64,000 bases of DNA from Nannochloropsis oceanica (taxonomy: Eukaryota > Sar > Eustigmatophyceae > Eustigmatales > Monodopsidaceae), in contig CP038115.1 of NCBI GenBank assembly GCA_004519485.1, forward strand, positions 62,001 through 126,000, read 5' to 3'. Shown one piece after another: positions 2,851-33,143 of this stretch (positions are counted from its first letter, which is position 1; each line of letters opens with the position of its first letter). The translations under genes and the position numbers were made by a program. The notes under the pieces were generated by a model. It saw nothing but the letters and a program-made list of their open reading frames with translations. It was not told the DNA's origin and ran no database searches.

Positions 2851-5074
2851 ACGTGACGGTCGTAGGAAGTGCGAGTGGCAGCGGGCAGCAGCAGCAGCAG
2901 CAGCAGCCGTCCTATCACCCTCACAGGCCGCCGCCGACGACGACGCCCAGCAGTACACCTCCGCACATCTCAAACCGCAAGAGAGGCTCTTCCTTAGTCG
3001 GGAGTGGCAACAGCAACAGCAACAGCAGCGTTGGAGGTGTATTTTCCCGAGCCCGGACACACACACCCTCCGACTCATTTTTTGCCGTCGAAGAGGGGAT
3101 AAGCACCAGCAGCGATAAGATAGGTCGTACCAGCAACAGTAGCAACAGGAAACAGACAAAAGGAGAACGAAGGGAAGCTGAGACTAGACAGAAGGGAGGC
3201 AAACTGTGGGGTCTAGGTGTGCTGGTGTGCGCTCTAGGCGGCGTCGGCTTGTTAAGTGTCGGCGTAAGGACACGCCTGCTGCACAGCGGGATCATCATCA
3301 TCAGCAGCAGCAGCAGCACCACCACCACCACCACCACCACCGCGAGAAGTAAGGTATTGGAGAGACGACAAGACACGTTGGAGCAGCAGCTAGGCGACGC
3401 AGCCGCGAGGAGTGGAGAGAGGGAGGGCGAGGTGGACGACGGGGGGATAATGAACGGTAAAGTACTTGTAACGCCGGTGCCACCGGCATGGAGCGAAGAC
3501 AGCAGCAGCAGCATTGGCGTGCGTTTGGAAGACAGTCATGGGCCGGACCCCACCCACGGCGTGAAGGAGGTCTGGGGGAAGGACGAGGATGGGAAGGAGG
3601 ACGGGGGGTACGACTACACCAAGACGACAACAGAGGTGTACGGCGTGAGGCAGATGGAGTTCTTCGGCCCATACGCAGGGACCAGGCAGGGGCTGGACTA
3701 CGGGTTCCATCGAAACTACCGGCGGCAGAGGCAGGAGGTTCAAGACGGGATTATTAGGAGGGCCCTGGAGGGCGGGGCAGAGAGGAGGAGGAGGGAGTGG
3801 GGGAGGGAGGGGTCGTCGTTGGAGGACTTGTCAACCGGCGATGACGGGCAGCAGCAGCTGCAGCAGCAGCAGCAGAAGAAGGACGACGACGAAAATTTCT
3901 CCTCCCTCGCCCACGTCCAACGCGCCGAGCCCCACGAGATCGGCCCGGACTGCCGCCTCTCCCTCCCTCCCTCCCTCCCTCCCTCCTTCTCCTCCCTCTC
4001 CTCCTCCTCCTCCTCCCACCACTCCACCCCCCAGCAGTGGGTGGTGTTCACGGCTGGGCCCATGGGGGCGGGAAAAAGCCACACCCTCAAGTGGCTGGCC
4101 AAGAGGGGTTTCTTCCCGTTGGATGACTTTGTGCTCGCCGACCCGGATGTAATTCGAAACGAGCTCCCGGAGATAGAGGGCTATATAGAGAGGAATCCAT
4201 TAATGGCGGGTCAGCTGACGCATAAGGAGGCGGGTTATGTGCTGGAGATTTTGATTAGGGAGGGGCTGAAGGAAGGGAGGAATGTGCTGGTGCAGGGGAG
4301 CCTCAGAGACGCCGCATGGCATGCGCAGTATTTTCAGGTAGGAGGGAGGGCAAGAGAGAGAGGGAGAGAGAGGGGGGTTGGAGTAAGGGTCAAAGAAGAG
4401 GCAAGTAGGTGGGACGACGAGAGTGCTGACGATGATTTCCCCCTCTTCTCCCTTCCTCCCTCTTCCCCTTCCCAACCCACCCCCTCCCTCCCTCCCGCAA
4501 CAGGAGTTGAGAGAGTGTTTCCCAGGCCTGAGGATCGCGATAATCCACGTGACGGCGAGCAGGGAGACGGTCCTATCAAGGTTAGGAGGGAGGGAGGGAG
4601 GGAGGGAGGGGCAGAAGAACGAGGATGAATAAGAGTCAGGACTCGTATATAAATATATAGCAAGAGGAGGGGACGAGGCGTCACGAGTCGTTTCTCTTCT
4701 AGAAGCTAACGGTTGGATTGGCCTTCCTTCCCCCTCTTTCCCTCCCTCTCTCTCTCCCTCCCAGGGCACGGCGCCGAGGGATAGCAACCCGGCGGGTGGT
4801 GCCGGATGAGGTCCTTCTAGCTTCCCTGGAGGAGACTCCGCGCGCTGTAGGTGTACTGGAGAGACAGGCAGACTACTGTGTGGCCATCGATAACGATGGG
4901 AGGGGGGAACCGCGCCTTGTGGGAGGGTGTGGAAGGGAGGGAGGGAGGGGGGGAAGGAGGGAGGAGGAGACGTGGACGACGTTTTCGGGTGTGTGGCGGG
5001 GATGTGGGTTGCCGTCGAGGAGGGAGGGGGGAGGGGAGGGAGGGAGGGAGGGGAAGGAGGAGGGGAAAGAGTAG
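2851..5074 (+). CDS. Zeta-toxin-like P-loop kinase with a membrane segment
   Basis: The exons are 2851-4337, 4504-4580 and 4765-5074, all with GT-AG introns in consistent phase; the 5' exon is unresolved. The N-terminal half is low complexity (poly-Q, Ser, Thr) with one membrane segment (LWGLGVLVCALGGVGLLSVG). The C-terminal half is a P-loop kinase fold: Walker A in FTAGPMGAGKSHTLKWL (about 4048-4098), FPLDDFVLADPDVIRNELPE, AGQLTHKEAGYVLEIL, VQGSLRDAAWHAQYFQ, then AIIHVTASRETVLSR in the second exon. This matches zeta-toxin/UNAG-kinase-like domains that eukaryotes carry as ordinary cellular proteins. The gene is spliced and intact, so it is treated as a host gene. The substrate is unknown; small-molecule or nucleotide-sugar phosphorylation is inference. 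The C-terminal tail is GGGA-encoded (REGG repeats). Confidence 0.72.
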
Positions 5075-5548
5075 ATGGTTGTGTTTTAGTTTTGTATCGG
5101 TGAGTGGAAGAACACGGGGAGCGTGCATAAGGACACAAAGGTGGAACGTTCAAAAATTAGGGTTGTTTTCGTCGTCGTCGCCGTCGTAGTTGTTGTTGCT
5201 TTTTCCTCGGATTCTTGACTATGTTCTTCTTGTTCTTGTTCTTATTGACACTTCATTTTGTCTTATTATTTTATTTGCAGTTTTGGTTGCATTGCTTCTT
5301 GTTCTCTCCCTAGCGCTAACCCAATACCTTAAGTTTGAGTTTATGTCTTTTTTGCGCACACCGTTGTTCTTGCCTCCCTCCCTCCCTCCCTCACTCCCTC
5401 CCCGCTCGATCCCTTTTCTCATTCTTTATATTAACCACATATGTATAGTAATCAGGAAACAGACCTCGAGCCCGTTCTCCCTCCCTCATCCCCCACCTTT
5501 CCTCCTTGCATCAGCGTCAGTCCCTCCCCACCTCCCTCCCTCCCTCCC
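5075..5548. other. Convergent 3' intergenic region with CCCT arrays
   Basis: The ends of the P-loop kinase (+) and the bZIP-PAS gene (-) face each other here. The sequence is T/C-rich, with CCCT repeat runs at about 5372-5402 and 5523-5551. No gene is seen. Confidence 0.5.
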
Positions 5549-6115
5549 TCAGCCTTCCGGACGAATGATGGCCAGCAACCCCTGCGTTCCCTTCCGAAGC
5601 CCCAGGCCTACTTTGACGTATTTCTCCTCCATCGTTCCTCCTCTGTCTCTTTCCCCCTCCACGGAGCAAGACTTTAATCGGCAGGTGGTCTTGGCCACCG
5701 TATCTGTGCTTAACAGGGTAGTGGTGAACGCCGCGAGCACCTCCTTCAAATCCTCTGCGTGGACCATCTCTCCCAATCTCCTCCCTAGCAAGCTCGCAGG
5801 CACTAGCCCCAGCAAGCGCGCAAAGGCTGAGTTGGCGTACAAGATTTTTTCCTCCCTCTCAGCCGAGAGGACACACATCATATCCGGGGCTTCCTCCACA
5901 ATCAATTTGTAGGCGGACAAAGCCTCCACCATCACCCTCAACTCCTTCATCTCACACTCCTGTCTCTCCCGTGCCTGGGCGCTGTACAATCTCGCCCGCG
6001 CCTTTCTTCTTTCTTGTTTCTCCTCGGCAGTGAAGCCGTTCAGGTCCGCCCTTCGGGCCCTCTTTCCCTTCCTGCTCGCCCGCCATCCAAATTTATCCTC
6101 CTCCCCACCCTCGCA

Positions 6116-17476: not shown

Positions 17477-18404
17477 GTTATCAATCCAATCCAAAGGGAG
17501 GGCACTCGTGTTGCGTGCCCCTATTGCCTCTTATGCACGCGCCTCAACCCGACCGGCACTGCTTCCTAGGCACGCTCCTTGTCTAGGCCAGCGGCGGATT
17601 GGCTGTGTGGGATGTGTGCCGCGGGAGCGAGGGAGAGATTAACAATCTATGGATATGGGGTCGCTTGAGGAAGACTAGATGACTGTCGAGGAGCGAGTCA
17701 TGCCCCTTTTTGGGCTTGTGTCCGGCAAACCATGCTCATGGCGTCCATGCTCCGCTTTATATTCACCCGCTAAGTGAAGCTAAGAGTAATTTAGCTGGGT
17801 GGGAGCCGTTCCAAGGACACCGGGACATGCGTCGCAAGCGCCTTCCTGACATGTGACCGAGGTGGTTGATGCTTCTCGCTCTTCCCGTCTTGTATCGCTG
17901 TGGTCGCCACCCCTCCTTCTCGTTCCCTTCCTTTTTGCGCTGCGCAAAAGAGGCGTGGTCGTCGTGTTTAGTAGATCTTGTGGCCAGGGTCTGCCGGGGC
18001 TCTTGGGTGCTACAATTATCACATTTTTACTTCTCCCCGCCTCTACCACTACACACTAACTGGCAGACACGGCTATTACCATAGGCGCCTTGGGAAGCTT
18101 GCATTCTTGACCTCGCTAAAATCACTGCTACGCTATTAGCAAGCAGCGGCAGTGGAAAGGCGCTGTAAACCTAGTCAAGGTTCGTCGCACGCGCGAGTTT
18201 TTTTTTCGTTTGTCTTATCAGTGTACCCACCTGAGAGAGAGGCAGCCAGGCGTCAAATCAGCGGGGCCTTGCACCACTTCTCTGGCGTCCCATGGCGTGG
18301 TTTAAGCTGAGCTTCAACTGCGCCAAGCGCATAGGTGCATTGGTAAGATGGACCTTTCTCTGACCCGTTCATGCCTTTCTCATCCTCAATTCCACAGCAC
18401 AGCC
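17477..18404. other. Divergent promoter region
   Basis: This lies between the coiled-coil gene (-) and the plastid P-loop gene (+). It is mixed-composition sequence without GGGA arrays. Short open frames on both strands overlap one another and look like chance. Confidence 0.45.
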
Positions 18405-20552
18405 ATGTGGACACGACAAAGTCGTCATATCCGCCCCCCCTCCCCCCCCCTCCTCTGCCTCCTCCTTGCTCCCGTCCAACTCCTCTTCCTCCTCCTCCTC
18501 CTCCCCATGGTCCTCCTCGCCAGCGTTACACCCGCTTTTCACTCCGCTATTCTGACACGCCGGCACCATCGATCAAGTCATTGCGTCCTGTACGCAGACA
18601 CCGCGAGCCAGGCAGCAGCAGCAGCAACCTCCGACGACCTCCTCCTGTCTAACCTCTCCTCCCACATTTACGACCCCTCCCTCCCTCCCGCCCTCCTCAT
18701 CCCCATCGGGCCTCAATGCAGCGGCAAAAGCACCCTATTGCGTCGTTTGAGTGCCCGCCGTCCTCCTTCACTCCCTCCCTTGCTCGACATCTCTATCGAC
18801 GACCATCCGGGCCTCTACGTCCCGGTGCCCATGCCTCTCTTCCTGGAGGGAGGAATGGATGCAGGCAGGGAGGGAGGGATACTGATAAAGGGGAAATCAG
18901 TGGCAGCAAGGTGCCTGGAGCCGGCGGCAGAAGAGTGCAGGCTGGTCCTCGGCTATGTTTACGGGAGGGTGGGGTTGGAGGAAGCGGAGGAGGGCTTGCG
19001 AGCCTTGTCCTCTCCCCTTTCCTCCTCCTCCTCCTCCTCCTCCTCCTCGTCGTCTGCAGCCTCTGCGAGGACAAGAGAAACGATGGAGACGATGAGGAGT
19101 GGGGAGGGGGCGAAAGAGGAGTGGCTGCCGCTGCTGCTTGGCGCGATGACGAAGGCGCGAAAGAGGGTTGTCGATGCAAGCGCCGCTGCTGTTGCTCCCA
19201 CTGCTGCTGCAATTGCTGCTGTGCCTTCCTTCCCTCCCTCGCTTTCTGCAACCCACTACCAGCTGTTCCTGCCCCACCTTCTCTCCCAGGCGATCCAAAG
19301 CAGCACCAAGAGGTTGGACATCGCGCTGAGGGAGGGAGGGAGGGAGGGAGGGAGGGCGAGGTCCGGGGCACCCATGGCACCTGTGGCATGGGGAAATACG
19401 AACAGCAAGACTGGTGACTTCAAGGCGGCCTTGAGGGCGGGAGGGAGGGAGGGAAGGAGGGTGGTGTTTTTGAGATGGGGCGAGGAGATCGATAAGGAGG
19501 GAGGGAGGGAGAGTTTGGTGATGAGGAATGTGTGGAGGGCAGCAGAGGAGGGGAAGTACATCCCTGTCAAAACGATTCTAATGACTGCGGATAGGTGCGA
19601 GGCCTTGCTCGAGGGGGGGAAGGGAGGGAGGGATGGAGACCTGCTTGGGAGAGTGGGAATGCGGTTGGATGGGGAAGGGAAGCTGTGTCTGATGGCGGAG
19701 GAGGGAGGGAGGAATGGAGGGAAGGGGAAGGAGGGAGGGGGCGGGGTATGGAGGTGGGGAGAGGGAGGGAGGGAGGGAGAGAGGGAGGGAGGGAGGGACA
19801 AGGTTGATGTTGGTGTGGTCTCTTTGGCGACATCTTTGTGGAGAGGGAGGGATGGGGGGAGGGGGATGCAGGCAGCAGCAGTAGCTGGAACAGCAGCAGC
19901 AGCAGCGGCAGTAGCAGCAGCCGCAGCCGAGAGGATGGTGAGTGAGTTGGTGACTCTATCTTCTGGTAAATGGGGCGGAGGGATGGAAGGAGGGAGAGGG
20001 AAAGGAGGAGGAGCAGCAGTTGCAGCAGCAACTGCGATATCGCTGAGCAGAGAGGAGTGGGAGATGTTCAGTGGCAGCAGTAGCAGCAGCAACAGCAGAG
20101 GAAGAGGAAGAGGAGGAGGAGAGGAAAGTGAGGAAGCAGCGTCTGTAGCAGCAGTAGCAGCAGCAGTAACAGCAGCAGTAGGAGCAGCAGCAGCAGCAGT
20201 GTGTGGCGCCATCGACAGGACTCGCGCCATAATGGGCTCCAGTACTCTACAAGAGGCCGCGGACGGGTGGAGGGAGGGAGGGAGGGAGGTGGAGGCGTAT
20301 GTCAATTGTGTGTGGAGGGCCCAGGGGGGCCAATGGAAGAAGATGAAAGAGTGGAGCAAGAAGGCGGAAGGGATGAACGAGGACTGGAGGAGGGACTACG
20401 CCAAAGCGAGAAATATCACCTTGACGGAAAGGGAGGAGTTTATGAGAGAAAACAACGGGACCGACCCCTGGTTGCAGGGGAAGCAGAAGTTCGACCTTGA
20501 GTTGTGGCAAGTGCTTCGGACGCTCACGGGCTACAACAATCCCCGCTTCTAG
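18405..20552 (+). CDS. Plastid-targeted P-loop NTPase/kinase-like protein
   Basis: This is a single exon ending in TAG. An in-frame ATG at 18348 exists, but the ATG at 18405 (MWTRQSRHIRPPSPP) places the hydrophobic core (LLCLLLAPVQLLFLLLLLP) where a signal peptide needs it. It ends LLASVTPA|FHSAIL, an ASAFAP-like site expected for complex-plastid import. The mature part has a Walker A loop (LIPIGPQCSGKSTLLRRL), then LDISIDDHPGLYVPVP, GKSVAARCLEPAAEECRLVL and a conserved C-terminus (LTEREEFMRENNGTDPWLQG, FDLELWQVLRTLTGYNN). Six or more GGGA runs inside the exon encode GREGGREG-type inserts, alternating with Ala and Ser repeats. The family is not recognised beyond the P-loop; kinase activity is a guess. 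Confidence 0.68.
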   Translation: MWTRQSRHIRPPSPPLLCLLLAPVQLLFLLLLLPMVLLASVTPAFHSAILTRRHHRSSHCVLYADTASQAAAAATSDDLLLSNLSSHIYDPSLPPALLIPIGPQCSGKSTLLRRLSARRPPSLPPLLDISIDDHPGLYVPVPMPLFLEGGMDAGREGGILIKGKSVAARCLEPAAEECRLVLGYVYGRVGLEEAEEGLRALSSPLSSSSSSSSSSSSAASARTRETMETMRSGEGAKEEWLPLLLGAMTKARKRVVDASAAAVAPTAAAIAAVPSFPPSLSATHYQLFLPHLLSQAIQSSTKRLDIALREGGREGGRARSGAPMAPVAWGNTNSKTGDFKAALRAGGREGRRVVFLRWGEEIDKEGGRESLVMRNVWRAAEEGKYIPVKTILMTADRCEALLEGGKGGRDGDLLGRVGMRLDGEGKLCLMAEEGGRNGGKGKEGGGGVWRWGEGGREGEREGGRDKVDVGVVSLATSLWRGRDGGRGMQAAAVAGTAAAAAAVAAAAAERMVSELVTLSSGKWGGGMEGGRGKGGGAAVAAATAISLSREEWEMFSGSSSSSNSRGRGRGGGEESEEAASVAAVAAAVTAAVGAAAAAVCGAIDRTRAIMGSSTLQEAADGWREGGREVEAYVNCVWRAQGGQWKKMKEWSKKAEGMNEDWRRDYAKARNITLTEREEFMRENNGTDPWLQGKQKFDLELWQVLRTLTGYNNPRF

Positions 20553-21783: not shown

Positions 21784-24700
21784 ATGGCGGCTCCTCCTCC
21801 CTCCCCTCCCTTTGCTCCTTCCCCCGACCCCACCATCGCATCCCCCCCAAAGGCATCTTGGACCAATCAATACATCTCACCGCATGACGCTCAGACTCTC
21901 TTTTTAGAAAGCCTTGTTATCCTCTTCCTCTCCATCCTGGCCACGCTGTCCGTGCTGCTGGCGATCCTCCACAGGCACGTGCGCTTGTTGTTCTGGCGGC
22001 CATTTCTCCTCCTCCTGAAAGCTTCCTCTTCTTACCTTCCCCGACCCAGACACTATTTTCCCGATAGAGCCTCATTTTTGTTTCATCTTCTTTTTTTTTC
22101 TTATGATCTCCCCGCACTCCCCATAGGAAGTACAACCGGCGTGACCAGAGGCACCAGGCAGAACGACGTCGACGGCACCGCGAAATCCGCAAGTTTCTTG
22201 ACTTCATCGTCCTGGTCTTGTTTGGGTTTGAGCTATGGCTGTCTCTCAATTGGATGGCTGGCACCATTCTCTCGGAGCAGTTGCATGGCCGGAGCTCGTT
22301 TGGAGTGGAAGCCAGGGAGGAGATGACGAGGCGAGGGTGGGAGGGAAGGAGGAAGGCCTGTCGGGTCGTGGGGGGATTGATCTACGCCATTGAGATCGTT
22401 CTTTACTTGTGGAATGCGTGCCTGGCCTACAGCATCTATTCATGGATCGTCAAAAAAGCCCTCCTCCGACGCCTGTACCACCGCATGCAGTTCCTCCTTC
22501 TCCTCTCCCTCCTCGTCTCTCTCACCATCTCTATTGTCCCGCTCTCGCAAAACGCCTTTGGGGCCACGGCCCATGCCACCTGCTGGCTCGTCAACATCCG
22601 CATGACCAGTGCCCCCTTTCTCCTCAACAAAATGATCGTCCTCCCAATCTGCTGGCTCTTCGTCGGCTATTTCTACGCCCTCACTTTGGCCCATATCTGG
22701 CGACAACCGTCCTCCGGCCCCCTCACCCTGCCAGTCATCAAGTCCTACCAACGCCTCCGCAGACGCCTTTTCCTCTTCGCATTCGTCTTCTTCCTCTGCT
22801 GGACACTCAATGCCCTCTGGTACCTCCTGCTGGCCATCAGGCCGTCCTCCCTCCCTCGTTCCTTTCCTCTCTTCCTCGTCCTGGGGGTGATGGCAAAGTT
22901 CTCTTATGCGCTCGGTCTTTTGGACGCCCTGGCTTATGGGCTTGGGAGTAGCAGCATGGGTGGGGTCACTTTTACGTGCCAGAGGATGAGGGCAGGAGGG
23001 AGGAACAGGGTGGGTGAGTGGTGGAGGAGTATTGTGCGTCGGTGGAGAGAGGGGGCGGTGGAGGAGGAGGAGGGGGGAGGGAGGGGGGGAAGAGGGCGGA
23101 GAGATGTGGGGGGCATCGTCGGAGAGGGAGGGAGAGAGGGAGGGAGGAAGGCCGCATCTAATGAGTTCGTGGTTCACGTTGTTGGCAGGGGTAGGGGGCA
23201 CGGGTGAAGGCGTGGAGGAGGGGATGGAGGAAGGGAGGGGCGAGGTGTTTCCTTGGTCTAGAGTTGAGGATGTGGTTGAGTCGGCTGAAGGAGGGAAGGA
23301 GGGAGGGAAGGAGGGCGGGCGTGGGAAAAGGGATGAGGAGGAATGGAAGGAGGGCGAAAGAGTATTAGATGAAGAAGTGGCCTTGTCAAAAATAGGCGGC
23401 GGAGGAGAAGGGAAAGGTGTTGGTGGTAGAGGAGGAGGAGGAGGAGGAGGAGGAGGAGGAGGAGGAGGAGGAGAAGGAAGAGAAAGATTGGGAAGGGGGT
23501 ACAACGCTTCCCTCCCTCCCTTCTTCTTCCACCTCACCTCTCAGAGACAGGAGCAGCTGCAGCTGAAAGAAAGCCCTAGCCATCTGACCTGTCGCATATT
23601 TGCCACCAGCCTTAACTGTGGCTCTTGCACCCGGGTCCAGGATTTGGGCCGCCTGGACGAGTGGATTCCGAAAGGTGCGTTTCCCCCTTCCCTCCTCGCT
23701 CCCCCCTTCCTCCCTCCCTTTCTTTCTCTCAACCTGTACAGGTGGTGGTTTCGATCCGTCCGTTTGGAAACAGTGCACGGAGGTCGCCTGCAATCTTCAA
23801 GACACCCACCCTCCTTCGCTCCATCTCTCCCTCCCTCCTTCCCTCCCTCCCTTTTTCCGCCCCTCCCTAGACGGCTACGACCTCTACGTCCTGGCAGTGC
23901 AAGAGTGCCGCATGCTCGCTCAGATGCGTAAAGCGGTCCATAGCCATTTGGGCGGCCCCAGCGCCTTTGCCCTCTTCGAACAGGATCTGGGTGATACCCT
24001 CGTTTGCAACGGTTAGAACCACCCTCCCTTCCTCCCTCCCTCCCTCCCTTCCTCCCTTCCTCCCTCTCTCCCTCCCTCTATCCCTGCCTACTCGCCCCTG
24101 AGTCCCTTCCCCCTCCTGCTACAGTCTCTCATCCCTCCCCCTCTCTCATCTTAACATGTCTACATATGTCTCCATCCATTCACGCTCCCCTCCCCGCGTC
24201 CTTTCTCTCCTCTTTCTCTACCCCCTTCCCGCCCCCTCAACAGGCAAGATTGCCCTCCTCATCTTCGGCCGTTACGACCACGTGCAGGAAGGAGCCCTCA
24301 AGCTTGCGGCGCCGGGAGGACGAGGGCGTATCTCCAGCGGCATTGACTTGGTCTTTTCGCGATTCCATAATAAGGGTACGCCTTGACTCTCTTTCCGTAG
24401 TCACGTCTTCGCTCGCTTGATGGTCCTGTCCTCCCTCCCTGACCTCGCCTCTTGTCCCTTCCCTAAGGCTCCCATCACGCCTGCCTGTACTCTTTCCCTC
24501 TCCTCTTTGCTTGGTCTCTCAACTTCTCTTTTGTCTTTCTCTCCTGTCTCCTTAGTCTGTCCATTCCCTCCCAAACACTGTAGACTCCCCCTTCCCCCTC
24601 CCTCCCCCTTTCCCTCAGGTGTGGTGGGTGTGGCGCTGCAGTACTACGGCACAGCCATCGCCTTCCTCGTCGCGCATTTTGCCAGTGACAGCGGCGGGAA

Positions 24701-27700
24701 AAAGCGATGGGAACGACGGGATGAGGACGCCAGGCGTACCCTGCATATGCTGCATCTGGCTGGTGAAAACCCTCCCTCCCTCCCTCCCTCCCTCCCTTCC
24801 TCCGTGTCCCATTCCCCATCACCCATCCAAGACTTGCTGACTCCCCACATTGACTCATTCTTTTGTCCCTCCCTCCATTTCCCCTTCCTCCCCTCCCTCC
24901 CTCTCTCCCTCTCTCCCTCTCTCCCTCCCTCAGGTGATGAGAGAGATTTCGATGTCCACCTCCAGCACGACCATGTCATCCTGCTGGTACAGGGGGAGGG
25001 AGGAAGGAAGGGAGGGAGGAAGGGAGCGAGGGAGCAGGGGGCAATCCGTTTCCGGAAGAAGCAAAATGTATATAATCACCACGGTATGCATCCAACCCCC
25101 CCCACCCTCCCTCCTTCCCTCCTTCCCTCCCTCAGGGTGATCTCAACTACCGCTCTCAGTGTTTTGTGGGCGAGATTCTGTGCCGGCTGGCGGCTTCGGC
25201 GGAGGTCGAGAAGAGCAAGCAGGGCTGGGGCCTTCACTCTGGTCATGCCTGGAGGTAATAAGACGACCTTTCTCTCTCCCTCCCTCCCTCCCTCCGCCCT
25301 TCCCCCCATCCATCATCCATAGGGCGATCGCCCCTCTGGGCCTTCCCGTATCCCAACCCCCTCTCTCATTACCCCTCCCTCGCCCCCTCCCTTCTTCCCT
25401 GACTTGTCCAGGGACGTTTCCTACAACCGCTTTTTCATGCCACCGTCGCAGCTCAGAGGGATGGGGAGAACAGCTCGCTCACCATCTCAAGAGATTCCAG
25501 TGGAAGAGACGGAGATGGAGGTGTTGGGGGAGGAAGAGGGGGAGAGGGGGAGGGAGGAAGGTGTGGGACGTGAGATGACGTGGACGACGGCGCGTGGGAG
25601 TGGGAGTGAGGGAGGAAGGAAGAAAGAGGGTTTGGTGGGCCTACTCTCCTCGACAAGAGGGAGCGCGTGCGTGCGGGAGCAGGCAGAGGAGGAGGCGGGG
25701 AAGGAGAGGGGGGAAGAGAGGAAGGAGGAGCATTGGAATTGGGTTGGGGAAGTGGATGAGCTCTCCCTGTCACGCAAGGCGGAGGTGGCTCTGAGTGGCT
25801 TCCAGGAGGGCCCTCTCACCTTCCCCCCGACCTTCAAATACCACCCGAAGAGGAGCGTAGAGGACTATGCGGACGTGGCGGACCTGCGGTATGCCTACCA
25901 GGTCAGCAAGGGAGGGGGGGAGGAAGGGGGGGAGGGCAGGGAGGTGGGGAAGAAGGAGAGTCGGACTCCGAGCTGGACGGATCGTGTCTTGTTTCATTCG
26001 TTGCCGGGCTTGGAGGGCCGCTTGGTGCTTGAGGCGTATGATGCCTGTGACGCTATTACCGGATCCGACCATCGGCCGGTGGTGGCAGCGTTTCAGCTAG
26101 GGTTGGAGAAGCCGACAATGACAGCGGCACCAGCAGCAGCAGCGGGGGAGATGTTGATGGGAGGAGGCGAGGAGGAGGGAGGGGGAGGAATCGATAATGG
26201 GAAAAGATTGCTTTGGAGGAGGAAGATAGAGGCAGGAGGGGGAGGGAGGGGGCAAGGAAGGGATGCAAACGGTCTGAGTGTTCCTCCTCCGATTTCGGAT
26301 CGAGCCGCGGGTAAAACTCTCTCATGGCATGGCCTGCCCCCGGTCCCTCCCTTTCCTCCCCCCTTCCCTTCCTCCTTTCCATCCATTTTCTCTTCCTCCT
26401 CTCCCTCCTCCTCTCTTTCCTCCTCCTCATCAACCAACCCTCTCTTCCTATCTTCTTCCCGCTCCACCCCTGCCCCCTTCACTCCCTCCTTCCTCCCCCT
26501 CCTGCCTCCTCCTCCCCCTCGACCACCCGTTATTCCCACCACCATTCTCCTCTCAGTCCGTCTCTCCAATTTCCGCTTCCACTTCAAGCTACCCTCCAAA
26601 CCCGACCTGCAGCTCGCGCAGCGCCACCCTTCCTCCCTCCCTCCCCCCTCCTTATCGTCCACCTCTTCCACCTCTTCCTCCTTCCCGTCCTCGGCTGAGC
26701 GATGGCTAGGACCGCTGGCATCCGTTGCAACGTCTTGGTTGAAGGGACGCATTCGGCCTGGTGGAAAAAGAGGAGAGGGGAAAGGAGGAGGAAAGTGGGA
26801 CAGGGAGGGAGGAAGGGGTGTAGGCGGAGAGGAGGAAGAAGAAGAAGAAGAAAAACAGGAAGAGGAGGAAGAGGAGGAGGAAGAAGAGGAGGAAGAAGAT
26901 AAAGAAGGAAAAGAGGAGGGGGTGGAAGGAGAATTGTTCTATACACCTGCGAGAGATAACGCCGGCATCAAGATGGAAGATCTAGAGTCAGGAATAACCC
27001 TCTCTCCCTCCTCCCCTCACCCCCTCACCAGAGGAGGAGGAAGAAGAGGAGGAGGAGGAGGACTAAGCGAAGACGAAGAAGGAGGAGGAGTACCCGGCCG
27101 CCAGATCCCTGCTGCCGCTTCTTACGCCCCCTCATTCTCTCCCATGCACTCCTCCCGCATTAGCGCCCCCCCTTTATCCTCCTCTTCTTCCTACTCCTCC
27201 TTCTCCGCCGAGGCCGAGGTCGAAACCTTCCAGCAGCAGCAGCAGCAGCAGCAGGAGTCCCACCATTCTTCTTGCCCCCCTGCTACCGATGCACGGAGGA
27301 CCACCATCCCTCTCCCCTCCCCTCTCATCCCCACTGAGGCCGACATCGGGTGGGTGATTGTTCTGATGCCCATCCCTTGCCAGGATCCCCTCACCGCCCA
27401 CCGGCGCGTCGTTCTCCTCGACTCTCTCGAGGCCTCACCCGCCGTCCCCCCCCACCCTCTTTCCTTCTCCTCCTCTTCCCCTCTTCTCTCCCTCATGAAC
27501 GGAGGGCTGAGACCCGCAGCAAGGACAGCGGCAAACATAGCAAGGCTGCAGCATCTAAGGAAAAAGGAGAAGGAGGAGGAGAAAAAGGAGAAGAGGGAAA
27601 GGAAAATTATGGAGGTAGCGGCAAGAGCAGAAGCACTCGCACAGACAGCCGCGGCTGCAGCAGCGACAGCGGCAGCGGCAGCGGCAGCAGCGGCAACAGC

Positions 27701-29003
27701 GGCAACAACAACCGCAGCAGCAGTAGGTGTGAAAACAGTAGCGCCTACAGCAAGAGAGAGTGGCAGATGGGAGGACAGTGAAAGGGTGTCAAGTAAGACT
27801 GCCTCTCCCCAATCTCCTTGTGTACCGTCTGAGTGCACGAAACGAAGCGGTGACGATGACGAAGGCGAGGGCGAGGGCGAGGATGTGGAGGAGGGCAAGA
27901 GGGAGGGCGAGGATGAGGAGGAGGGCAAGGGGGAGGGGGAGAGGGAGGAAGGGGCTGAGTCCCACGCGATCGCTGCGGGGGCACCAACTCGAGCAGCGAC
28001 GGCCGGTGTGACGAAAGAGAAAAAGAACGAGGAGGAGGAGGAGGAGGAGGAGGAGAGGGAAAACGAAAAAGAAGAGGAAGAAGGAGTAGTAGTAGTAGAA
28101 GAAGAAGAAGAAGAAGAAGAAGAAGAAGAAGAGGAGGAGGAGGAGGAGGAGGAGGAGGGATGGGGAAATGTAGAGGAATGGAAGCATGTGCATCGATACG
28201 CTTGGGCTGACGTGCAGAAGAAGGGAGAGCTCAGGTGCATTGTTCGACCCCTTCCTCCCTCCCTCCCTCCCTCCATTTTTCCTCACTTCTTTCCTCATCT
28301 TACTATCCACCTATCCATATACGAGCTGTACTCCCACTCTTCTCCTCTCTTTCTATCCCTTTTCTTCTCCTCCTCTGCATCCGTCCAAGCTTCCTCCCTC
28401 CCTCACTCCCACCCCCTCTTCCTCCCTTCCCCCTTCCCCCCCTCCCTTAGGTTTCAGGGCATTGTCGTGCCTACTGGAGGGATGCATGTTGCGATCAAGT
28501 TCTTGGACAAACTAGGAGTCGATCTCGGGCAAGGCGTGATTTGTCTCAAGGAGGTGGTGTCGAGGGGAAAAGGGAGGGAGGGAGTGAGTGAGGGGGCGAC
28601 GGAGGTGAGGGTGAAGTTGTCAGTCGGAGGGATGGGGCTGGGGGAGATGGGGATGCTGGTAGTAGTGAAGAGCAGGAAGAGGCATTCGATGGCGGAAGAG
28701 TGGGTGAGGAGTGGCTCCGCGGGGGCCGCCGGAAGAGGAGGAGGAGAAGGAGAGGGGGGAGGAGAGGGAGGAGGAAGAGGAAGAGGAAGAGGAGGACCAT
28801 TAGGAGGAGGAGAGGGAGCAAAACGATCCGCAGGGACAGGAGAAGGAGGGGTTGGTGGAGCAGTAGGAGTAGAAGAAGTAGCAGAATGTGAGATGTTGAA
28901 GGAGGAGGAGGAGCAGCAGCAGGAAGAGGGAGAGGAGGAATGGGAGGAGAATGATGAGAAAGATGAGGAAGAGGAAAAGGGAGTCTGGCGGCTGTGGGAG
29001 TAG
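21784..29003 (+). CDS. 7TM receptor fused to inositol-polyphosphate 5-phosphatase (GPCR-INPP bigram)
   Basis: I place ten exons: 21784-21974, 22127-23013, 23189-23674, 23871-24011, 24244-24375, 24619-24762, 24934-24986, 25136-25254, 25412-28234 and 28451-29003, totalling 5529 bases, an exact multiple of three. Intron 1 is GC-AG; the rest are GT-AG. Exons 1-2 encode seven hydrophobic helices (for example LESLVILFLSILATLSVLLA, FLDFIVLVLFGFELWLSLNW, KMIVLPICWLFVGYFYAL, LFAFVFFLCWTLNALWYLLL) with a CWLVN motif recalling cAMP-receptor-type GPCRs. Intron 2 (GTGAGT...TTGGCAG) joins this frame to the phosphatase frame. Exons 3-9 give the IPPc core: YDLYVLAVQEC, FHNKGVVGVAL, FLVAHFAS, GDLNYR split across exons 7 and 8, SWTDRVLFHS, GSDHRPVVAAF. 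A long Glu/Ala/Pro-rich region and a small C-terminal module (FQGIVVPTGGMHVAIKFLDK) follow. The product is expected to be a membrane receptor hydrolysing phosphoinositides or inositol phosphates on ligand or G-protein input. Confidence 0.85.
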
Positions 29004-29798: not shown

Positions 29799-31631
29799 CT
29801 AGCTCTTAAAGCCCAACTGCAACCGTCGCGCCACGTTCTCGAAACCGCCATACCGAATTATCTTCTCCAGCAAATCTCTCCGCTCGTCCCCAACCAGCTC
29901 CTCCGCCGTCGGTAAAAACAAGTTTACCTTCTCCCGCTCTTTCCTCCCCGCGCGCTCCCGTGGGTGCTGCGCCCAGCATTTGTTCATAATGTACTCCAAG
30001 AGCGCCACGCCAAAGTCAAAGTCAAAAGTCCCGTAGCTAATCCTCGACGCGAACTTGCCTCTCTCCCCACTCCCTGCCTTCAAGGGCAGCCCCAGCCGGG
30101 CCGCCACGAGCTTCCTCCCTCCGTTCCTCGCCACCTCTGAGTGCAGGCGGTGGTAGCCCGCCCGCTTGATGTCCCTCAACGTGGGCATCTCCCGCCGCCC
30201 TCCCTCCTCTTCATCCAGGTATGTCTTGAGGTCCTTCATCAACAAATAAAACCGACAGAAGTAGCTCCACTGCGAGAAGGGGATGAATCCCAGGGAGCAC
30301 ACCACGCTCTCGTACCCGCCGTACCGCCGGATGGTATTGATCATGTTCGCGCGGCCCCACCCAACCAGGTCACTAATCTTGGGAAAGAAGAGCAGGGGGA
30401 GGTGAAGGGCTGCGGAGTGCTCCTCTGCGACTAGATAGCACTCGTCGGCGAGTTTCTCCATGCTCCAGACGGTCCGGTTCTGGTACTTCCATCCCCCGGG
30501 GACCCCGTCCTTGTCGTGCTTCCCATGGGAGGGGGGGAAACGCGTCGTCTTGAGACGCTCATTCAAAATGACAGCACCGCCGCGAGGGCCAATGACGAGC
30601 CGGCGCTCGATCCGTTGGTGTTGGAGGGAGGGAGGAGGGGAGAGAAGGGCTTGGGATTGCGGGTCCCCGTGGGGCACAATGACGCCGGCATCGACTAGCG
30701 CCTGGACCTCCGGGAAGCTCATGGCTTGTCGAAAGTCCCCCGGAATATAGTCAGTGCCGAGGAGGTAGGCCAGGGTCTCCCTTCCCCCCTGCTTGTAGAT
30801 GGCGTGCCGGAGTCCGTGGGCATCATAGAGCCGCAGCAACATCTCGTTCGGGATTGCCGAGCTGCTTATGTTCAACCCCTCCCAGAACTCCTCCACGGAC
30901 GTCTTGATCTGGGAAATATCTTTCCAATAGCCCCAGGGCTTTCGGTCCCCTCCCAACCCTCCCTCCCGGACCCCGACCCCTGCCTCCTTGTCGCCCTCTT
31001 CCTGGCCTGAGAGGGTTAAAAGAGCGGATTGTCGCTTCAAACGATAGCTCTCGTCGAGGCCTGCTCGAAAACCGACCAGATCTAGAAGGGAATGGTCGCT
31101 GCTGTTCTTCCCGGAGGAATTCTTCTTGCTATTGGTGGTGGCGGAGGTGGAGGGGGAGGACTCGGGGGATGGCGAGGAGGAGGAGGAGGAGGAGGAGGAG
31201 GATGAGGGTTTGGTGGCGTGAGTCATTGAGGGTGGGTGAGTGGGATGACGGCTACTATACGTGGGAGAGGATGAGGGAAAAGGGAGGACAGGGACGAGGA
31301 AGCCAGATGGTGGTAGTGACGGCGATGATGATGGTGACATCGCCGAGGTTACATGGAGGAGGAGGCAAGGGAGTAGGCAAGGGAGAAGGATGACGGGCCA
31401 AAATGGGAATGAAAGAGGCGCGAGATCTCTTCTTATTCTAGCCCTTCTTGGTAATGAGGGCGAAAATGCGTCTGTCGATGAAGAAGGAGAAGGAGACCTG
31501 GTCGAAAGTAGGGGCGTAGGTGGTAGTACCATGCTCCTCGGCAAAGGACATGCACACAGGTGTCCTATGCCCTCCTCTTCATTATGGACACCTGCAGCCG
31601 CTGGAGCTCCGGATCTTCTTCTCCATCTCAT
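29799..31631 (-). CDS. Protein with repeated 'GG-x3-VA-x2-LG' helical modules, probably organellar
   Basis: This is a single exon with ATG at 31631 and 610 residues; later in-frame Mets could also serve. The N-terminal 160 residues are Pro/Ser-rich with one hydrophobic stretch (FPFWPVILLPCLLPCLLLHV), so an organelle or secretory leader is possible. The rest has at least four related modules of about 50-60 residues: YDAHGLRHAIYKQGGRETLA, GWGRANMINTIRRYGGYESV, AGYHRLHSEVARNGGRKLVA, DERRDLLEKIIRYGGFENVA, each followed by a short hydrophobic end such as RRLQLGF or ARLGLPL. Many algal and plant organellar proteins carry repeats of this type, with unclear function. The intact, regular composition argues for a real gene; the role is not assigned. 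Confidence 0.65.
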   Translation of the reverse strand: MRWRRRSGAPAAAGVHNEEEGIGHLCACPLPRSMVLPPTPLLSTRSPSPSSSTDAFSPSLPRRARIRRDLAPLSFPFWPVILLPCLLPCLLLHVTSAMSPSSSPSLPPSGFLVPVLPFPSSSPTYSSRHPTHPPSMTHATKPSSSSSSSSSSSPSPESSPSTSATTNSKKNSSGKNSSDHSLLDLVGFRAGLDESYRLKRQSALLTLSGQEEGDKEAGVGVREGGLGGDRKPWGYWKDISQIKTSVEEFWEGLNISSSAIPNEMLLRLYDAHGLRHAIYKQGGRETLAYLLGTDYIPGDFRQAMSFPEVQALVDAGVIVPHGDPQSQALLSPPPSLQHQRIERRLVIGPRGGAVILNERLKTTRFPPSHGKHDKDGVPGGWKYQNRTVWSMEKLADECYLVAEEHSAALHLPLLFFPKISDLVGWGRANMINTIRRYGGYESVVCSLGFIPFSQWSYFCRFYLLMKDLKTYLDEEEGGRREMPTLRDIKRAGYHRLHSEVARNGGRKLVAARLGLPLKAGSGERGKFASRISYGTFDFDFGVALLEYIMNKCWAQHPRERAGRKEREKVNLFLPTAEELVGDERRDLLEKIIRYGGFENVARRLQLGFKS

Positions 31632-33143
31632 GCTTAGTCCCTTTCACTTCTCCGGCTTCAAGGGCAGAGAGTTGGTCGGCAGTAATGCGGACGAGGGACA
31701 GGACCTAATAAACTACGTGATGATGACGTTGTCCGAGCCCGCGGTGCCTTATGCTTGTCACTTTGTCCGCCCTCTGTATGTGGTGCAACAACAAGGAATG
31801 AGGGTATCATAGCAGCGATGAGACTCTGCAGTAATGAGAGTCAGGGCAATTTGGTTGTCTTAGGCATTGGGTAGATGCGGGCAAGACGCAAGCATCATTT
31901 CTTAAATTTGCCAGGTAGGATTTCAGTGAAGAAAGCGAGGAAGAGTTCCAATTCTGCCTTCGGGCCATACATAACTTTCGTAATTTTCTCGCAGAGCTTT
32001 TGAAAATGATAGAGCAGGTAGACAACGAAAAAGGATGATGTTTTTCCCAAAAAGAGAGATGTTTGTTTCCCTCCCCTATGCGGCATGGCTGCATATGCAT
32101 TCGGGCAGGGCTCGGGGTTTGGATTGAGATGAATTTGCTCCTTTTTCGTGAGATGGACACGGACCCGCCCATCGTTGATCATCAAATGTGTGGAAACTGT
32201 TTCAAACGACTGTCTTAAGCCTTTTCATGCCAGTGAGGGCTTCAAGGGGAAAAAGTCCACTGAATTGCAAAGACATCTCCTCTGTGTCACAAAGCTACCC
32301 ATGTTTACTCCCTTGTGCCGTCTATGCAGCACGATATGCATATATTTATTCATTACTTTTCTCCTTTCGTTTGCCATGGCATGGCTTAAAGAGTCTATCC
32401 ACACACTCTTACGCTCAAATATATGCATGTGCTAACATGTTATAGTCTCGTATTTTTTTCCTCGCCCAGGCATACAATTATATCCCCTTATTCTCGAGCA
32501 CATTGACAATCCATCCCCCTAACAAATATATCGAATACAGAAAAGTCGCGGGGCGGGTTCTAACCGACCCTTCTGCTCTTCTCTATGGCAATGTTGGCAT
32601 TCTCTCGATACAACATAAAAGCTCTTGCATGCACCCCAGGGATTACAGCCACGTGGCACATGGCATGCCATCTCAAACTTTCCTCTGTCCTCACTTCTCC
32701 TCTCTCTGTCCTCTCACCCTTCCGCTCATCTTTATTCTCTACTTTCTCCATATATACGCGCATGTCCACACCACTTATCAAGGCAAGCAATTCGCCTGTG
32801 TCCGCTACTATCTATCATTCCTATGGCTTTTACCTATTGCTGTATCTGCTCTTTCTCTGCCCTCTCTCTTTCTTATAGCGCTACTAGCACACACTTGAAC
32901 ACTCAATTTTCGTGCTGCATCTTTTCCAGTAATTTTTTTAACATGAAAATGTACAACACTTACTATCCAAAATAAAGTACACGCATGCAAGTATGTCACA
33001 CTCCCTCTCCCTCTCCTCCGCACTCATTGTCTCAAATGCCTCCGTTCAATCCTCCGAGGACGCCAAGTCCCACCTCACGCTCCCTCCCTCACTCCATCCC
33101 TCAATCCCTCCCTCTATCTCTCCCTCTATCCCTCTTCTGTCCG
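31632..33143. other. Intergenic region, partly A+T-rich
   Basis: Between the repeat-protein gene (-) and the MYB gene (-) lies 1.5 kb. The part at about 31830-33000 is more A+T-rich than most of the window and nearly free of GGGA/CCCT arrays; CCCT-type repeats return at about 33060-33135 near the MYB 3' end. Only short open frames without domains are present. Confidence 0.45.

Follow-up and report, generated by a model that had tools for sequence, protein, structure and literature searches.

A receptor-phosphatase gene of the GPCR-INPP type in Nannochloropsis oceanica, with a conserved and probably C2-like C-terminal domain

The 64,000-nucleotide stretch of Nannochloropsis oceanica DNA analysed here (the window; G000:C18:62001-126000 in the searched assembly, which comprises 29.26 Mb in 32 contigs) carries at 21784-29003 a gene for a seven-helix receptor of the G-protein-coupled receptor (GPCR) type with an inositol-polyphosphate 5-phosphatase (IPPc) behind it. 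Elsewhere in this genome the locus L025 is matched at 100%, over 388 and 51 residues, by the N. oceanica protein VYU27_006980 (P0088), in agreement with this eustigmatophyte as the source. The gene is best read as a GPCR-INPP bigram, a receptor joined to an inositol polyphosphate phosphatase, and so as an already known protein type in another Nannochloropsis species. With the exon boundaries chosen, ten exons with a total length of 5529 nucleotides encode 1842 residues, with a single terminal stop and none internal, in agreement with the statement of a first-pass annotation of this DNA that the ten exons sum to a multiple of three.

Seven hydrophobic clusters are seen in exons 1 and 2 in a hydrophobicity scan, as the first-pass annotation had read them; the same scan also marked a strand of the phosphatase, a run of alanines and two short later stretches, which are not counted as transmembrane (TM) helices. 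The charges of the loops follow the pattern expected for an outer N terminus and an inner C terminus, with 10, 5, 6 and 4 lysine and arginine residues in the loops expected inside and 1, 7 (alongside 5 acidic residues), 1 and 2 in those expected outside. The seven-transmembrane (7TM) region scores below the gathering cut-off of PF05462 (10.6 and 9.9 bits compared with 21), a cut-off that the paralogue C17 (32.9 bits) and the relatives P0010-P0013 pass. It is nevertheless matched at 3.8e-14 (Z set to 1e5) by a profile built from four PF05462-positive relatives and C17, far above shuffled sequences, the best of 500 reaching 4.4 bits. The 50 PDB matches listed by Foldseek for the window 7TM are all GPCRs, none at E 0.001 or better. 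We conclude that an N-terminal 7TM region with GPCR topology is present in the window gene. A search of the genome with the 7TM exon found only itself, and one with PF05462 gave no match either in this genome or in the controls and is hence uninformative on absence.

The phosphatase is recognised by PF22669 within the first 965 residues of the protein, at 8.2e-28 and 98.2 bits compared with a cut-off of 27. The profile searches proposed in the first-pass annotation bear out the enzyme directly, and the receptor through its relatives though not through PF05462 itself. The motifs GDLNYR, SWTDRVL and SDHRPV, from which that annotation had recognised the IPPc core, are all found, and the N, QE, NK, H, GDxN, TDR and SDHRPV columns are invariant in all five aligned members (the window protein and four paralogues, with the C8 copy left out). 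The role of each of the catalytic residues is known from IPPc domains in general. The catalytic residues of the window 5-phosphatase appear intact, and activity is predicted. Among solved structures, the nearest relatives by a profile of the five aligned domains are SHIP2 (2.3e-39) and SHIP1 (1.5e-34); the 72 kDa phosphatase (1.3e-27) and the type II phosphatase (3.9e-25) rank lower. No SH2 domain was matched when the spliced protein and the open frames were scanned with Pfam.

Two alternatives exist at the exon 1/2 junction, a GC-AG intron (21975-22126) and a GT-AG intron (21979-22130), which give proteins of equal length differing in one residue. An exon 7 donor at 25084 was rejected by hand, as the reading would run into a stop. 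A further candidate intron within exon 9 (26311-26556), phase-neutral and with a pyrimidine content of 0.85, would shorten the protein to 1760 residues; it is disfavoured because the orthologues conserve the sequence directly before its acceptor, similar residues being found in P0009, P0015, P0017 and P0018 (best in P0018, ILLSVRLSNF), although these are genomic translations, which weakens their use against it.

Table. Coordinates of the exons and of the questioned junction interval of the receptor-phosphatase gene, numbered within the window.
Feature	Coordinates	Strand	Content
Exon 1	21784..21974	+	N terminus and TM1 (~21907-21972); 43% identity to P0003
Exon 2	22127..23013	+	TM2-TM7 (~22188-22937); 50% identity to P0003, E 8e-111
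Junction intron of the first-pass annotation	23014..23188	+	Good splice signals, purine-rich; may be coding instead
Exon 3	23189..23674	+	Linker of low complexity; first part of IPPc (IFATSLNCG from ~23596)
Exon 4	23871..24011	+	IPPc, VQEC motif
Exon 5	24244..24375	+	IPPc
Exon 6	24619..24762	+	IPPc, AHFASD segment
Exon 7	24934..24986	+	IPPc
Exon 8	25136..25254	+	IPPc, GDLNYR
Exon 9	25412..28234	+	Rest of IPPc (SWTDRVL, SDHRPV; to ~26111)
Exon 9, continued	25412..28234	+	Long acidic and low-complexity linkers; C-terminal-domain pieces 26544-26612, 27354-27473, 28176-28234
Exon 10	28451..29003	+	Last piece of conserved C-terminal domain (to ~28670), low-complexity tail, stop codon

For the long open frames flanking the gene, 18306-20552 and 29799-31643, a Pfam search at E 0.01 gave nothing.

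The window gene belongs to a small family in this genome. At least nine IPPc loci are found (17 matches, the best candidates being scored), at least six of which have upstream hydrophobic helices compatible with a 7TM region: C18 (the window gene), C27, C2, C26, C17 and C8. The 7TM and IPPc regions lie in one unbroken frame in C27 and C2 (1435 and 1404 residues), and TM7 shares a frame with the phosphatase start in C26 and C17. The C8 copy (L023, G000:C8:772000-780500, at ~4285-5582 within the locus) looks decayed: the VLVVxEC motif contains a stop, the asparagine conserved in the first phosphatase motif is replaced by lysine, and the last helices lie in a different frame. No 7TM region was seen in the stretches read around the C3 (OCRL-like), C4 and C22 loci. 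The C22 locus (L019, G000:C22:264000-271500, minus strand) encodes a phosphatase without a visible 7TM region, followed by a region that on visual inspection resembles a classical C2 domain.

Beyond this genome, the orthologue P0003 (659 residues; 50% identity over 330 residues) reads in a single frame from the 7TM region across the linker into the beginning of the phosphatase, and P0010, a complete open reading frame from a transcript, matches both PF05462 (6.6e-17) and PF22669 (4.2e-40). These relatives come from three protein searches. The first returned P0001 (SHIP2-like) as its sole match, other sequences perhaps having been displaced by low-complexity words, and the second, with a trimmed alignment, gave two matches. 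The third, in which the alignment rows were reordered to place the phosphatase before the 7TM region, gave at least 112 matches at E ≤0.001 among the best 8000 candidates; reordering made the search words come from the conserved part, and the order of the domains was read from the matched proteins themselves. Among the best ~8000 candidates of each search, neither the window's own protein nor any match named as an oomycete or N. gaditana was found. The fusion is supported, by these sequence comparisons more than by the argument from splicing.

The phosphatase domains of these proteins suggest a common history. A FastTree phylogeny of IPPc domains was calculated from the 65 of 122 sequences with at least 200 aligned positions, the fragments dropped including P0002, P0003, P0015, P0017, P0018, P0020 and P0031. 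In it all 17 tips of the family, among them P0010-P0013, group in one clade with a support of 0.925, the support figure being given for this clade alone. When the tree is rooted at its midpoint the neighbours of the clade are, in order, C22, then P0019, P0021 and P0039, then a group with the SHIP2-like P0001. Since the family tips fall in one clade, the tree fits one origin of the receptor-phosphatase fusion among the sampled sequences, none of which is a member named from the oomycetes or N. gaditana.

A third conserved domain, overlooked in the first-pass annotation, lies at the C terminus. The region after the phosphatase is common to the window protein, C27, C2, C26 and, as far as it was read, C17, and is present in P0010; in the window it is detected at 6.4e-11 by a profile built without the window protein and its orthologues. 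In a model of P0010 (mean predicted local distance difference test score, pLDDT, 64) this domain consists mostly of strands. The top 25 Foldseek matches to the model are SHIP1 and SHIP2 chains of 402-462 residues (best E 5.5e-21), the best phosphatase-only chain following at 4.5e-16. In a second fold comparison the SHIP1 and SHIP2 phosphatase-C2 chains align over at most 392 residues with a root-mean-square deviation above 11, a phosphatase-only SHIP2 chain ties with them in Z, and the region after residue 713 is barely tested. Comparison of the C-terminal domain with the C2 domain of SHIP by sequence gave no significant match. We judge from the model that the conserved C-terminal domain is probably C2-like, and that the window protein probably has the layout receptor-phosphatase-C2. 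In SHIP2 the C2 domain is described as binding phosphatidylserine and enhancing turnover (PMC5550278).

The connection between receptor and phosphatase in the window copy is complicated by the interval 23014-23188, which the first-pass annotation took as a canonical, phase-matched intron. Its splice signals are indeed good, with a GTGAGT donor and a CAG acceptor, and the phases match. Its pyrimidine content, however, is 0.23, compared with 0.72-0.85 in eight of the nine other intervals; the ninth, 24987-25135, is likewise pyrimidine-poor (0.44), which lessens the force of this difference. Frame 1 within the interval, moreover, gives a 45-residue ungapped match, ending in SSWFTL, to the open frame of the P0003 linker, a score equalled by 4 of 1000 shuffles of that linker; for frames 0 and 2 the corresponding figures are 691 and 137 of 1000. 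That the interval is a spliced intron is therefore doubtful.

Within the interval a G-rich run (23077-23098) contains eight consecutive G, where the reading frame may shift and where an assembly error is possible.

Two readings fit: the P0003 sequence, being translated from genomic DNA, may run across a conserved intron, or the stretch may be coding, with the frame of the window copy changing in the G-rich run. In the latter case the difference would lie in the length of the run, either through a mistake in the assembly or because this strain has truly changed, and, were the change real and the stretch unspliced, the window copy would yield a receptor without its phosphatase. We give this coding alternative somewhat less than an even chance. 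The shared frame of TM7 and phosphatase start in the four paralogues C27, C2, C26 and C17 agrees with it, as do the composition and the frame-1 similarity, whereas the strong splice signals and their phase oppose it; the frame of P0003 also continues across the place of window intron 1 and may do likewise here. The splice phases permit the receptor and phosphatase of the window copy to be joined in one polypeptide across a junction that is itself doubtful, and the homologues are single frames. The fusion proposed in the first-pass annotation draws its better support from the homologues, the intron on which that proposal relied being questionable.

We propose, with a probability of roughly 0.65, that the window gene encodes a three-module GPCR-INPP in which the 7TM region would control a tethered membrane 5-phosphatase assisted by the C2-like domain. 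The receptor, akin to the cAMP-receptor-like GPCRs, would be oriented with its N terminus outside and its C terminus inside, placing the 5-phosphatase, and the probably C2-like domain that ends the chain, in the cytosol. Binding of a ligand would alter the conformation of the 7TM region, which in turn would change the activity or the membrane orientation of the phosphatase. The enzyme would then strip the 5-phosphate from a phosphoinositide of the same membrane, most plausibly phosphatidylinositol 4,5-bisphosphate (PI(4,5)P2), and the C-terminal domain, by analogy with C2 in SHIP2, would probably position or boost it. The proposal builds on what is computed here, namely both domains and their order, the conserved catalytic residues, the kinship of the phosphatase domains in the sampled relatives and the third domain. 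From these we infer a single polypeptide from the window copy, enzymatic activity, a substrate, a ligand and direct coupling. The composition of the junction interval and its frame-1 similarity to P0003 weigh against the proposal, as do the poor superposition and the tie in the second fold comparison, which, because it barely tests the C2 part, reduces our confidence slightly.

Signalling through a G protein is an alternative to direct control. The receptor could act in the ordinary way through G-alpha, with the phosphatase a passenger or regulated indirectly, and this is among the published models (PMC6033456). A single G-alpha gene of the genome scores above the cut-off of the family (G000:C4:529738-530983, in two pieces of 299 and 74.5 bits), the remaining eight of ten matches lying under it. 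The catalytic columns, however, do not vary among the five aligned members (C8 not included), and we regard this alternative as unlikely. In the same genome a search for PI-PLC-X gave one match, at 17 bits compared with a cut-off of 23.1. Searches for PI3/PI4-kinases gave no clear assignment to PI3K classes and hence speak neither for nor against PI(3,4,5)P3 as a substrate. The five loci for phosphatidylinositol phosphate kinase (PIPK; ten matches) were scanned roughly in all frames of at least 70 residues, and two hydrophobic segments were the most that any frame contained, which agrees with the absence of GPCR-PIPK published for N. gaditana.

That the locus instead holds two genes, one for a 7TM receptor that ends with exon 2 and one, further downstream, for a phosphatase with a start of its own, is very improbable: the gene model was read from genomic DNA alone, the junction intron is doubtful and an ATG lies at 23161 in the phosphatase frame, but both domains run through single frames in C27 and C2, TM7 is in frame with the beginning of the phosphatase in C26 and C17, and P0003 and the transcript-derived P0010 link the two domains.

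A bolder extension, to which we give a rather low likelihood, is that GPCR-INPP proteins form a stramenopile three-domain family of single origin, in which the 7TM region would gate a SHIP-like phosphatase-C2 unit and the C2 domain would relay the conformational change, with no G protein taking part. If direct gating is correct, an outside signal would lead to the removal of a membrane phosphoinositide independently of any G protein, and the SHIP-like phosphatase-C2 layout, if true, would offer a concrete, testable path by which the receptor could act on the active site. Since N. oceanica is open to transformation, its small family (at least six loci, one apparently decayed) is a place for study outside plant pathogens.

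The first-pass annotation had framed a receptor directly carrying a phosphoinositide phosphatase in a photosynthetic stramenopile as a would-be compact signalling unit, and the novelty of that framing is not supported. GPCR-INPP bigrams were described in 2018 (van den Hoogen et al., mBio; PMC5784254), which counts seven in P. infestans and between one and nine in the other oomycetes; beyond that group they were reported only for N. gaditana, a photosynthetic stramenopile, with seven genes, compared with the at least six 7TM and IPPc loci of N. oceanica. A review lists the GPCR-INPP type and its possible modes of action (PMC6033456). The words 'inositol' and 'phosphatase' do not occur in the main text of two further papers on GPCR-bigrams (PMC12716839 and PMC9960496). 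Among the titles listed on Nannochloropsis GPCRs and inositol phosphatases, none is about the window gene.

The protein shares features with several known systems. Like the Dictyostelium-type cAMP receptors (PF05462), it has a 7TM region that is detected by the profile of the relatives passing that family's cut-off (P0010-P0013) and C17; unlike them, it misses the Pfam cut-off and carries an enzyme. The GPCR-PIPK bigrams likewise join a receptor to a phosphoinositide enzyme, but their kinase catalyses the opposite reaction to the phosphatase of the window protein. SHIP1 and SHIP2 are the nearest solved phosphatases by profile, and their phosphatase-C2 structures top the Foldseek list of the relative P0010, whereas the window protein shows no SH2 domain, has a 7TM region in front and is linked to C2 by fold only. 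The closest counterparts are the GPCR-INPP proteins of oomycetes and N. gaditana, with an N-terminal 7TM region, a C-terminal inositol polyphosphate phosphatase and several copies per genome, the latter species being of the same genus. They differ in being reported for N. gaditana and not N. oceanica, and the terms 'C2 domain', 'SHIP' and 'PIP3' do not occur in the main text of PMC5784254, its supplements lying outside this check. To this known type the present comparisons would add the conserved C-terminal domain and a SHIP1/2-like phosphatase, with the relatives P0003 and P0010-P0013 as a lead only.
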